Assembly (NCBI RefSeq): GCF_023556315.2
Contig: NZ_CP116221.1
Span: 3,920,001-3,984,000 of the forward strand
Origin: Psychroserpens ponticola
GTDB taxonomy: Bacteria > Bacteroidota > Bacteroidia > Flavobacteriales > Flavobacteriaceae
DNA: 64,000 bases
Direction of reading: 5' to 3'
The notes below the pieces were generated by a model that saw only the letters and a program-made list of their open reading frames with translations, made no database searches and was not told the origin of the DNA. The position numbers were made by a program, and so were the translations under genes. This document shows, in pieces, positions 4,992-19,179 of this stretch. How positions within the stretch are numbered: position 1 is the stretch's first letter; each line of letters opens with the position of its first letter.

Positions 4992-5387
4992 TTATTTATT
5001 GTTAGCTTTTATATACACATTAGAATACCAGTATAAAGTAGCTACTAAAACAAACTCAAATGCTATAATCCAAAAGCTAGGAGTTGTAAAAAAACTATAA
5101 TGATTTCCACCATTTGGAATTTCAAATAATGGTACTGTTATTAAAGCATCTAAAGCAACACTCGTTAACAGCATTGTTTGTCCAACTTTAATTCCATGAG
5201 TTTGTTTGTCTTTTTTGTAGTAGTGTTTGCAACCGTACCAAACAAGTGGCATTACAACTATAAAAAGCGTAATGTTTGCTTGTGTAATTGAATCTTCTAA
5301 AATTGAAACATAGAAGGAAATCGCATATAGAAGAACAGCTATTATCCAAATCACTATGCCTGTTAAAATTGCACGTTTAATTTTCAT
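4992..5387 (-). CDS. DUF5367-like membrane protein (131 aa)
   Basis: Four predicted transmembrane helices, at about residues 7-25, 38-52, 70-88 and 100-122, with a basic loop (CKHYYKKDKQTHG) between helices 2 and 3. The order and the THGxKVG motif fit the DUF5367 family as I remember it. It lies 92 nt downstream of the AraC regulator and 46 nt upstream of the NmrA-like gene. No function is known; proximity suggests that it is part of the regulator's target operon. Confidence 0.72.
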   Translation of the reverse strand: MKIKRAILTGIVIWIIAVLLYAISFYVSILEDSITQANITLFIVVMPLVWYGCKHYYKKDKQTHGIKVGQTMLLTSVALDALITVPLFEIPNGGNHYSFFTTPSFWIIAFEFVLVATLYWYSNVYIKANNK

Positions 5388-16097: not shown

Positions 16098-16706
16098 ATG
16101 GCTTTCGAATTACCGAAATTAAAATACGCATACGATGCTTTAGAACCACACATTGATGCTCGTACAATGGAAATACATCACTCAAAACATCATAATGGTT
16201 ATACTACTAAACTTAATGCTGCAATTGCAGGTTCAGATTTAGAAGGTAAATCTATAGGAGAGATTTTAACAAATCTTGATATGAATAATGCTGGTGTTAG
16301 AAATAATGGAGGAGGTTTTTATAATCATTCGTTATTTTGGGACGTTATGAATCCAGATGACAAAGGCTATTTGTCTGGAGATTTAAAAGATGCTATCGAA
16401 GCAGAATTTGGATCTAAAGATGCTTTTGTTGAAGCATTTAGTAAGGCAGCAGCAACTCAGTTTGGATCAGGTTGGGCATGGTTATGTGTTCATAAAGGCG
16501 GAAAGGTTGAAGTGTGTTCAACACCAAATCAAGATAATCCATTAATGCCTGGTGTGAGTTGCGGAGGAACTCCAATTTTAGGTTTAGACGTTTGGGAACA
16601 CGCGTACTATTTAAACTATCAAAACAGAAGACCAGATTATATTGATGCTTTTTTTAAAGTTGTAAACTGGAATGAAGTTGAAAGACGTTACGCAGAAGCA
16701 AAGTAA
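16098..16706 (+). CDS. sodA: Superoxide dismutase (Fe/Mn family)
   Basis: A cytosolic 202-residue superoxide dismutase that converts superoxide to oxygen and hydrogen peroxide. All four metal ligands are visible: His27 in [12 protein letters not shown], His in FYNHSLFWD (about 77), Asp in [10 protein letters not shown] and the His of the same block. The motif [15 protein letters not shown] is diagnostic. Discrimination between Fe and Mn is not possible by eye. It is a single-gene unit, with a TAnnTTTG box upstream and a terminator at 16765-16795. It is divergent from the AddA-like gene. Confidence 0.96.
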
Positions 16707-16742: not shown

Positions 16743-16764
16743 TCTAATAGAAAAGTAATTTATG

Positions 16765-16795
16765 AAAGCAAGCTCATTTGAGTTTGCTTTTTTTA
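16765..16795 (+). terminator. Intrinsic terminator of sodA
   Basis: Hairpin AAGCAAGCTC / GAGTTTGCTT with an ATTT loop and one G-T pair, followed by a run of T. It ends the sodA transcript before the small-RNA region. Confidence 0.8.
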
Positions 16796-16842
16796 TGCTT
16801 CGGAAATAGAAGAGAATTTAATTTTGGTCTGAACTTAAAATG

Positions 16843-16911
16843 AAAAAGGTGAACTTACGTTCACCTTTTTGCCCCAAATCTACCATAAACTTAACCTACT
16901 TATGTTATGGT
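16843..16911 (-). ncRNA. Putative small RNA, copy 1
   Basis: Read on the minus strand from about 16911: a stem ACCATAA/TTATGGT closing a 16-nt loop (CATAAGTAGGTTAAGT), then AGATTTGGGGC, then a terminator hairpin GGTGAAC-GTAA-GTTCACC followed by TTTTT. A perfect TATATTTG box (16923-16916) lies four bases before the first stem. A second copy with identical loop and linker lies 250 bp away at 17095-17167. No start codon with a useful frame is present. The region is bounded by the sodA terminator and the purF stop. The structure, promoter and terminator support an independent transcript of about 70 nt; expression is not shown. Compare with Rfam Flavo-1 and known Flavobacterium sRNAs. Confidence 0.65.
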
Positions 16912-16915
16912 GAAA

Positions 16916-16923
16916 CAAATATA
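16916..16923 (-). promoter_or_regulatory. -7 box for small RNA copy 1
   Basis: TATATTTG on the minus strand, a perfect TAnnTTTG, ends four bases before the ACCATAA stem. No clear TTG is present at the -33 position. Confidence 0.55.
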
Positions 16924-17094
16924 AGCGCACTTCTTTCTAATAGTTAAATTTTTTAGACTAACGACAAATAAATTGGCTTAAACGGGGAAAACTACAATTT
17001 TAGCTGTTTATAAGTGATAATAAAGAAATGCTTTAGATGGTAATGAAAAGAAATTGAAAAACAAGATGTTATAAGGTTGTAAACATATGTTAAT

Positions 17095-17167
17095 AAAAAA
17101 AGGTGAACAGAAGTTCACCTTTTTTTGCCCCAAATCTACCATGAACTTAACCTACTTATGTTATGGT
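17095..17167 (-). ncRNA. Putative small RNA, copy 2
   Basis: Second copy of the element at 16843-16911, same strand. The 16-nt loop and the GATTTGGGGC stretch are identical. The terminator stem (GGTGAAC/GTTCACC) is identical, but its loop differs (TTCT versus GTAA) and its T run is longer (seven). The 3' arm of the first stem has one change that gives an A-C mismatch next to the loop when read on the minus strand (a G-U pair if read on plus), the only observation that does not favour the minus orientation. This conservation of loop and stem, with drift elsewhere, is the pattern expected of a structured RNA. Confidence 0.65.
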
Positions 17168-17171
17168 GATA

Positions 17172-17179
17172 CCAATGTA
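17172..17179 (-). promoter_or_regulatory. -7-like box for small RNA copy 2
   Basis: TACATTGG on the minus strand matches TAnnTTTG with one mismatch and sits at exactly the same four-base distance from the first stem as the perfect box of copy 1. Confidence 0.45.
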
Positions 17180-17280: not shown

Positions 17281-19179
17281 CTAGTAAGCCCTTTCTTTGT
17301 TTCCTTCATAGAAATTAATAAAAGCTCTGTTAACTACACGGTTACCACCAACGGTTGGATAGTTTCCTGTGAAGTACCAATCTCCTAAATTCTTAGGGCA
17401 AGCTTTGTGTAAATTCTCGATGGGTTGAAAAATAGTTTTCACTTTCGTTTTTACTGTATCATCAGATATTAATTCTGCAATCTTATCAGAAATCTGGTTT
17501 GCAGTAAATTCGTTGTATAAATCTTTTACGAAGTTTTTGACCTCCTTGTCCTTTAATTCAAGCTGTGCTTTACATTTGTGATACACGTCTTCAATCATAT
17601 GATATTTATCGTTTTCTTTTAATAGTTCTAGCATAGCTCTAAAAGCGATTAAACTTTCAAGATTCGCCATGTCAATTCCGTAGCAATCTGGATAACGAAT
17701 TTGAGGAGCAGATGAAACCACAACAATTTGTTTTGGGTTTAAACGATCCATCATTTTAATGATACTCATTTTAAGCGTTGTGCCTCTCACAATACTATCA
17801 TCAATAATCACCAAATTGTCAGTAGGTTGAATAACACCATAAGTGACATCATAGACATGAGCTACTAAATCGTCACGACTGCTATCTTCAGTAATAAAAG
17901 TTCTAAGTTTTACATCTTTGATGGCGATTTTTTCAATTCGAGGTCTTTCAGAAAGTATTTCGGTCACTTTCTCTGCGGAAAGTTTTCCGTTACCATCTAA
18001 TATGGCTTGTGTTTTTCGTTCGTTGAGATGTTGTTCAACAGTTTCTATCATTCCGAAGAATGACGTTTCAGCAGTATTTGGTATGTATGAAAACACCGAA
18101 TTCTTAGTATCTCCTTCAATGGCTTCTAAAACTTTAGGCATTAATAACTTTCCTAATTTTTTACGCTCTTGATAAATTTCGGCATCACTTCCACGAGAAA
18201 AATAGATGCGTTCAAATGAACAAGCTTTTCGTTCTAAAGGCTCAAGAATTTGTTCAATAAATACTTCACCAGATTTCTTTGTAATGATTGCATGTCCAGG
18301 TTCTAATTCTTTTACATCTTCAAAATCAACATTAAATACTGTTTGAATTACAGGACGCTCAGAAGCTACAGCAACGATTTCATCATCTTCATAATAATAG
18401 GTTGGCCTAATTCCTGCAGGATCTCTTAAAACAAAGGAATCTCCATGACCTAATAATCCAGCCATTGCATAACCACCATCCCAGTTTTTAGCTGCTTTTT
18501 TCAATATTTTAGTAACATTCAAGCGCTCAGCAATTAAAGGTGAACATTCACTTTTACTATAGCCTTCTTTTTTTAGTTTTTTATAAATTTTACTAACTGC
18601 ATCATCTAGAAAGTGGCCGATTTTTTCCATAATAGTGATGGTATCCGCTTTTTCTTTGGGATGCTGACCAAGTTCAACTAAACCATCAAACAATTCGTTT
18701 ACATTGGTCATGTTAAAATTCCCAGCAACAATAAGATTTCTGTGCATCCAATTGTTTTGTCTTAAAAATGGATGAACGCTTTCAACACTGTTTTTTCCGA
18801 AAGTACCATACCGAACATGACCTAATAGTAATTCACCTATATATGGAATGTGCTTCTTTTGAAGCGCGACATTATCTTGGTATTCTGGATGCTCATTTAA
18901 CTCATCATTAATGCGTTCATTAATTTGAGCAAAAATATCTTGTATAGGTTGTTGAGCTATAGAACGTACGCGACTTATGTATCGTTCTCCAGGATTAGTA
19001 TCTAATTTGATACTCGCAAAACCAGCTCCATCTTGACCACGATTGTGCTGCTTCTCCATCATGAGATACATTTTATTTACACCGTAAAATGCACTTCCGT
19101 ACTTTTCCTTGTAATACTCTAATGGTTTTTTTAGTCTTATGAGTGCAATTCCGCATTCATGTTTTAAAGCATCGCTCAT
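17281..19179 (-). CDS. purF: Amidophosphoribosyltransferase (long form)
   Basis: First enzyme of purine synthesis: PRPP plus glutamine to phosphoribosylamine. Cys9 (KHECGIALIRL) is the N-terminal nucleophile after removal of an eight-residue propeptide, and RGQDGAG and HVRYGTFG belong to the class II glutaminase. The phosphoribosyltransferase PRPP loop is VIIDDSIVRGTTL. At 632 aa it is longer than the usual 470-500 aa, with an inserted region around residues 300-410 and a long C-terminal tail; similar long forms are usual in Bacteroidota as far as I recall. It follows purN-rnhA-pfkB on the same strand but is separated from them by a terminator. Confidence 0.9.
   Translation of the reverse strand: MSDALKHECGIALIRLKKPLEYYKEKYGSAFYGVNKMYLMMEKQHNRGQDGAGFASIKLDTNPGERYISRVRSIAQQPIQDIFAQINERINDELNEHPEYQDNVALQKKHIPYIGELLLGHVRYGTFGKNSVESVHPFLRQNNWMHRNLIVAGNFNMTNVNELFDGLVELGQHPKEKADTITIMEKIGHFLDDAVSKIYKKLKKEGYSKSECSPLIAERLNVTKILKKAAKNWDGGYAMAGLLGHGDSFVLRDPAGIRPTYYYEDDEIVAVASERPVIQTVFNVDFEDVKELEPGHAIITKKSGEVFIEQILEPLERKACSFERIYFSRGSDAEIYQERKKLGKLLMPKVLEAIEGDTKNSVFSYIPNTAETSFFGMIETVEQHLNERKTQAILDGNGKLSAEKVTEILSERPRIEKIAIKDVKLRTFITEDSSRDDLVAHVYDVTYGVIQPTDNLVIIDDSIVRGTTLKMSIIKMMDRLNPKQIVVVSSAPQIRYPDCYGIDMANLESLIAFRAMLELLKENDKYHMIEDVYHKCKAQLELKDKEVKNFVKDLYNEFTANQISDKIAELISDDTVKTKVKTIFQPIENLHKACPKNLGDWYFTGNYPTVGGNRVVNRAFINFYEGNKERAY

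Follow-up and report, generated by a model that had tools for sequence, protein, structure and literature searches.

A tandem family of candidate small RNAs between purF and sodA in Flavobacteriaceae and its predicted partners among secreted and surface-protein messages

An intriguing question is what occupies the gap between sodA and purF in Psychroserpens ponticola, where two similar short elements lie one behind the other. The gap belongs to a window of 64,000 nucleotides (the whole stretch of DNA analysed; contig NZ_CP116221.1, positions 3,920,001 to 3,984,000), and the original prediction was that it holds two tandem minus-strand elements, each with a box four nucleotides upstream and a terminator, that encode a small RNA, called R here. 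Direct reading of the sequence confirms this arrangement. The copy on the sodA side (copy 1) extends from a predicted +1 at 16911 to 16843 (minus strand, about 69 nt; covariance-model hit at 16842-16911), and the copy on the purF side (copy 2) from a predicted +1 at 17167 to 17095 (minus strand, about 73 nt; covariance-model hit at 17096-17167), so that the starts are 256 bp apart. Each unit is ordered as a TAnnTT(T/G)G box, four bases, a 41-nt body, an A run, a hairpin and a T run. The promoter-like box is TATATTTG in copy 1 (16923-16916, minus strand), where it is kept in relatives, and TACATTGG in copy 2 (17179-17172, minus strand). The two bodies read ACCATAACATAAGTAGGTTAAGTT(T/C)ATGGTAGATTTGGGGC and differ in one base, and the predicted pairing region, or seed, GGTAGATTTGGG lies on the minus strand at 16873..16884 in copy 1, where seed search and duplex analysis both point to it, and at 17129..17140 in copy 2, where the seed search does. 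The minus-strand intrinsic terminators have GGTGAAC/GTTCACC stems in both copies, with unlike loops and A/T arms; that of copy 1 (16843..16870) was found by a terminator scan and its stem covaries in relatives, and that of copy 2 (17095..17126), absent from the scan list, was read by eye and aligned with relatives. The convergent neighbour, sodA (16098..16706, plus strand), encodes Sod_Fe_N and Sod_Fe_C domains. The upstream neighbour, on the strand of R, is a frame at 17281..19179 (minus strand, stop at 17281) whose Pfam matches are limited to GATase_6 and GATase_7 and whose purF name comes from the first reading of the sequence.

Other kinds of gene were considered and rejected. No tRNA or tmRNA was found in the 64-kb window. 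The body contains an ATG, and a small peptide was considered and rejected because an extra A in one clade and the variable A run shift the frame; the four translations that were made diverge. It is also possible that the units are a passive repeat or a bidirectional terminator with no RNA function, given that terminator stems can act on both strands, but we regard this as very improbable. A terminator-like site detected by the scan 3' of sodA on the plus strand (16764-16791) means that the R units are not needed to terminate sodA. Moreover, each of the 23 genus genomes has two copies and all 46 of them keep the body while the flanks drift; thus the units are not a chance occurrence. The original prediction would have yielded to a repeat without conserved box and terminator; genome comparisons found the box conserved and the terminator covarying. 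The variable base of the body is C in all 23 first copies (in transcription order; the purF side in the window) and T in all 23 second copies, a uniform split indicating that the two copies are old paralogues. Terminator loops and stems vary among the 46 copies.

Anatomy, conservation and synteny can be read from the genomes themselves, and they point well beyond the genus. Among the matches listed, purF and/or sodA flank R in 114 of 118 named pieces, in all 114 with purF upstream on the strand of R and sodA convergent, a single orientation that also argues against a passive repeat; the other four pieces show neither gene. Copy number among these matches is one in 53 pieces, two in 29, three in 18, four in 12, five in 5 and six in 1, with some pieces cut so that arrays may be incomplete. 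R was matched at E<=0.01 in 313 of 397 family genomes and 193 of 237 genera, with 84 genomes lacking a match; the first figure takes in a few weak matches, one of which (G037) has no recognisable R. The genus Flavobacterium is represented by F. swingsii and F. aciduliphilum. In other genera the 5' arm has ACCAUAGC or ACCAGAAC, an extra A occurs (GGUAAGAUUUGGG), and arrays have as many as six copies. A covariance-model search, which the original prediction had proposed for the family, was run on 296 genomes of the phylum with stricter filters than the 397-genome search, both samples being even draws. Thirty genomes matched at E<=0.01. The strong matches (26 genomes, best E 6.6e-10 or lower) were confined to Flavobacteriaceae. 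The other four matched marginally (0.002-0.007), and three of these are from outside the family and one from inside it. No match was found in at least three family genomes of this sample.

Is it the structure or the sequence of R that is conserved? The original prediction placed an A-C mismatch in the 5' stem of copy 2 and saw in the preserved stems a sign of selection on structure. The mismatch is real, but it is no obstacle once a pyrimidine is bulged and AAC pairs with GUU. In this bulged register RNAfold gives -5.2 kcal/mol for the hairpins of both copies, and in a 20-sequence alignment the register pairs 95.0% of helix cells, compared with 86.3% for the register proposed originally. Selection on structure is borne out for the terminator, where 8 of 10 stem pairs show two-sided changes in the same alignment, but not for the 5' stem, where the 20 sequences show no two-sided change: two pairs are invariant, three have changes on a single side, and in the other three the sole departures are unpaired cells. 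The energy of the 5' hairpin is weakly better than that of mononucleotide shuffles (p 0.055 and 0.078), and the 5' helix is plausible rather than proven. Constraint on R appears to act mainly on sequence, in the near-invariant loop and GAUUUGGGG stretch, as expected for a base-pairing RNA.

An alternative to independent genes is that R is released by processing from the 3' end of the purF mRNA and lacks a promoter of its own. Where purF is present in the pieces listed, R indeed lies behind it on the same strand, mostly at about 90-160 nt. Such an origin is quite unlikely, however, because 201 of the 214 non-redundant regions upstream of R have a promoter-like box (TAnnTT type, five variants accepted, counted without a shuffle control) at a fixed distance. 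The strict form TAnnTTTG accounts for 93 of the 214. Across these regions the box at -12 to -5 is strong and a weaker pattern occupies -70 to -40 (T-rich, with C near -64 and -44), TCTAA being found upstream of R in 71; no position from -39 to -17 is conserved. The weak distal pattern, together with the absence of conservation between it and the box, suggests an activator-dependent promoter. From these signals we infer that R is transcribed, and apparently from its own promoter to an intrinsic terminator, as would be expected of a trans-acting base-pairing sRNA. Box, covarying terminator and fixed synteny together support the small-RNA gene on the minus strand that was originally proposed.

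The kind of RNA that R would represent, a tandem base-pairing sRNA with possible sponges, is already known. SroC and GcvB exemplify a small RNA titrated by another RNA, and the Qrr RNAs are several near-identical sRNAs in tandem; these systems belong to other phyla than R and are Hfq-linked, and they are likened to it by arrangement only. Whether R itself is new is a separate matter. No Rfam family matched the 64-kb window at gathering thresholds, and seven related loci gave no match besides a separate Flavo-1 (at 5116-5193 of locus L204, apart from R). Flavo-1 (RF01705) is a flavobacterial RNA motif like R, and the original prediction had called for the comparison. R does not reach its gathering score: the window has no match at gathering, and the vicinity of the locus has none up to E 10.

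Another parallel is FopS/GibS of Bacteroides (RF04319), a multicopy sRNA family of the same phylum with a seed ahead of the terminator, like R, of which GibS binds translation initiation regions (PMC11697453). FopS differs in that the R copies form one syntenic array. The identification of R as FopS was rejected, as R scores 22.6 bits against a gathering score of 56, and FopS was not among the matches in a further comparison. A FopS-like core, UUCAUGGUA..AGAUUU, can be read in R, but R shuffles give p 0.45, 0.07 and 0.014 for three forms of it, and reversed R scores 21-27 compared with 18-25 for R, so a shared core is not convincing.

The literature contained no earlier description of the R family that we could find, with one reservation concerning the Rfp sRNAs of F. 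psychrophilum. One of them, Rfp18, is a conserved sRNA predicted to target metalloproteases and a secreted adhesin; deleting it lowers two metalloprotease mRNAs (PMC9723704). It resembles R in being flavobacterial and conserved, and its metalloprotease and adhesin theme strikingly recalls the 5'UTR of an M14 peptidase and the 3'UTR of a type IX secretion (T9SS) protein predicted for R below, a concordance that does not prove identity. Its pairing region is described as a third stem-loop, whereas a single R unit has two hairpins, and the text consulted does not mention tandem copies, a purF-sodA locus or a family-wide range (PMC9723704). Rfp18 may be R, a comparison made by description rather than by sequence or coordinates. 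Thus, the original claim that the element is new holds in so far as no Rfam family fits it, and is qualified by the conserved F. psychrophilum sRNAs, Rfp18 included, which may include R (PMC9723704).

If R acts by base pairing, with what would it pair? An exact search of 23 genus genomes for the seed complement CCCAAATCTACC returned 35 sites outside the R copies, compared with 7 for the reversed pattern; five of the 23 genomes had no exact site outside R. Twenty of the loci were examined. In ten the site immediately follows the stop codon of a gene for a T9SS-tailed protein, and in one it is in a 5'UTR; eight are inside coding sequence and look like chance, and one lies behind an ABC-transporter gene in the R sense. 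Six further T9SS-protein sites are known beyond those ten. Near matches included, the T9SS 3'UTR site is present in 20 of 23 genomes: 19 (four with one letter changed) plus G011; G007 and G017 gave no result in this survey and G022 has no site. The surface protein of P. ponticola has domains including Laminin_G_3, GEVED, MAM and Por_Secre_tail (two pieces, one 3274-aa frame), and the site sits between its stop codon and the terminator. We rejected the idea that the site is part of the hisS transcript: a terminator-like hairpin of hisS precedes it, and in G005 and G020, where hisS was not found in its usual place beside it, the T9SS gene still has the site. The genus-typical HisS was not found in these two genomes either; they yielded only a HisS-like protein with 36-37% identity.

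Because a search for the seed complement is what first revealed the G000 partners, the T9SS sites and the antisense RNA described below, their seed match itself is not independent evidence. Complementarity that extends past the seed is apparent in the sequences. Duplexes of 19 T9SS sites from related species with R reach -28.8 to -40.0 kcal/mol, compared with shuffle means of -11 to -14, in energies that ignore the folding of either RNA, and in 17 of the 19 the bases beyond the searched seed also pair with R, at p<=0.014. Behind the 12-mer, NTGATCTTAACTTA or TTAAACTTAACTTA, or a close variant, extends the pairing into the loop of R. Variable target position 1 is A or G, both of which pair with U, in 14 of the 19 sites, and position 3 in all 19; position 5 is mismatched in 14.

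The protein whose gene has the 5'UTR site is 816 aa long and combines Peptidase_M14, Ig_7 and Por_Secre_tail domains; a TATATTTG box precedes the gene. This M14 gene, found by the seed, ranks 1 of 670 gene starts (taken as longest open frames) for duplex energy with R, and 2 of 135 in a smaller background, which takes in unannotated frames as well as related genes whose loci had been selected on other grounds. M14 orthologues occur in 6 of 23 genomes at 65-100% identity, the gene being split in G011. The five other orthologues, found by protein rather than by pairing, rank 1, 3, 4, 6 and 10 of the same 135 starts. Most of their sites change letters (CCCAAATCT, CCAAATTT, CCAGATTT) yet keep Watson-Crick or G-U pairs; the site in G009 is weak (-20.7). 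Five of seven M14 paralogues have CCCCAAAT ahead of the start codon, with ordinary duplexes of -12 to -20. In G000, G004, G006, G009 and G014, the surface-protein gene (2187-3274 aa) comes next after the M14 gene on the same strand, at a distance of 175-184 nt. The 3' site follows the stop codon of the surface-protein gene at 1-4 nt, so that the predicted sites bracket the gene pair.

No wide regulon is evident: over the sampled gene ends, and with the top gene set aside, R does little better than reversed R. Among 670 gene starts, 8 duplexes with R fall below -24 compared with 3 for reversed R, and 19 compared with 13 fall below -22; among 668 gene stops, a set from which the T9SS 3' end itself is missing because its frame ran off the piece, the counts are 7 compared with 2 and 14 compared with 13. 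In genus g127 (Flavobacterium by inference), 30 seed-complement loci were examined, 10 of which are not R, the R copies having been set aside by eye. One of these 10 has its site in a 5'UTR, and the gene concerned encodes an M28 peptidase, with an exact seed complement just upstream of the start codon (L409, 1501-1522).

In another clade the candidate partner is a separate RNA. The 17 genomes whose R has the extra A contain CCCAAATCTTACC at 16 loci outside R, with zero control hits; five of these loci lie between a promoter-like box and a terminator, five carry a mobile-element-like hairpin, and the remainder fall within or close to genes. When the promoter spacing was included, a search of the family, again an even draw, found 31 places in 28 of 397 genomes, compared with 7 control places. 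Fifteen of the 31, in 13 of 397 genomes, have the exact TTTG-N3-TCCCAAATCTTACC, in every case ahead of a hairpin and a T-rich run and mostly preceded by a TTGACAACT-like element; of the remaining 16, most are inside reading frames. In the best cases the sequence is TCCCAAATCTTACCAAACTAAACCTACTTAATGCTA, which is antisense to nearly all of R (-45.6 kcal/mol); the pairing stretch is at the 5' end of the antisense RNA. Outside the seed, pairing with R reaches p<=0.02 in 8 of 17 copies and lies above this value in 9, in a test that used one consensus R for all genomes. In the five genomes in which both were observed (G023, G054, G096, G173 and G236), R has the extra A and the partner the extra T. 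What we take to be a YidC-like C-terminus lies near the antisense RNA in 8 of 13 genomes. At one locus (L340, 1501 to about 1990) the antisense RNA occurs three times in tandem, about 200 nt apart, mirroring the R array. Separately, seven mobile-element-like loci (L289, L306, L318, L319, L291, L329 and L354) start with CCCAAATCT(T)ACC, the complement of the R seed, with a TGCG motif shortly after it and, at most of these loci, a long hairpin; none of the six searched matched Rfam.

These partners bear on two further explanations, both of which we consider unlikely. One is that R is a protein-binding RNA (CsrB- or 6S-like), in which the repeated GGUAGAUUUGGGG is the binding site and additional copies raise titration capacity. 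The near-invariance of loop and linker across the family, the one to six copies per locus among the matches listed and the repeats of the motif, in the same sense, that follow a peptide ABC transporter gene are consistent with this model, but opposite-strand partners with long complementarity to loop and linker would be unexpected for a pure protein site. The second, of similar standing, is that R is mainly the regulated party, with the antisense RNA and the T9SS 3'UTR acting as sponges and the targets of R lying elsewhere. In its favor, the antisense RNA comes with a promoter-like box, a terminator and a 5' pairing stretch of its own, and the T9SS site is placed between stop codon and terminator, but the pairing at the 5'UTRs of the M14 orthologues suggests that R has ordinary mRNA targets too. 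As for the transporter, its gene (peptide-type ABC, oligo_HPY) is followed in 14 of 23 genus genomes by R-like units in the R sense (GGTAGATTTGGGGC and variants), often two of them about 40 nt apart (e.g., G000:C1:3689060-3689113 at L059, and L034 5050-5123); they are candidates for an R mimic, a decoy or a shared protein site.

The reading that we favor, and hold with good though not full confidence, is that R is an independently transcribed, trans-acting base-pairing sRNA of about 70 nt, encoded in Flavobacteriaceae by an array of one to six copies between purF and sodA. Its mirror fit to peptidase and surface-protein messages makes it probably a base-pairing regulator, and the conserved complementarity to RNAs of other loci, as predicted here, is what such an sRNA should display. 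Under this proposal each unit between purF and sodA would be transcribed independently, and the GGUA(A)GAUUUGGGG stretch and the loop UAAGUAGGUUAAG would pair with matching RNA. At the 5'UTR of the T9SS-secreted M14 carboxypeptidase, the proximity of the site to the start codon suggests translational control as the probable outcome. Behind the stop codon of the giant T9SS surface protein, pairing might control mRNA decay, or the site may serve as a sponge. In the other clade the partner would be the separate small antisense RNA. Both it and the T9SS 3'UTR may be targets, sponges that titrate R, or both; the direction of regulation and the role of R in secreted proteolysis and surface proteins are what we infer from this pattern of pairing. 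A bolder version, which we offer tentatively and consider somewhat less likely true than false, is that R is a family-wide core sRNA governing secreted peptidases and T9SS surface proteins, gripping the gene pair at both ends and accompanied by lineage-specific, co-evolving antisense titrators, namely the surface-protein 3'UTR in this genus and a free-standing antisense sRNA, tripled in one species, in the other clade.

Flavobacteriaceae are major polymer degraders in the sea, soil and fresh water, and their post-transcriptional control has, to our knowledge, been little explored. Near-invariant, at one fixed locus in most of the genera sampled, outside any Rfam family and with concrete predicted partners, R would give access across the family to the tuning of secreted peptidases and surface proteins, and its changing partners would offer a natural series in which to study how RNA-RNA partnerships change.
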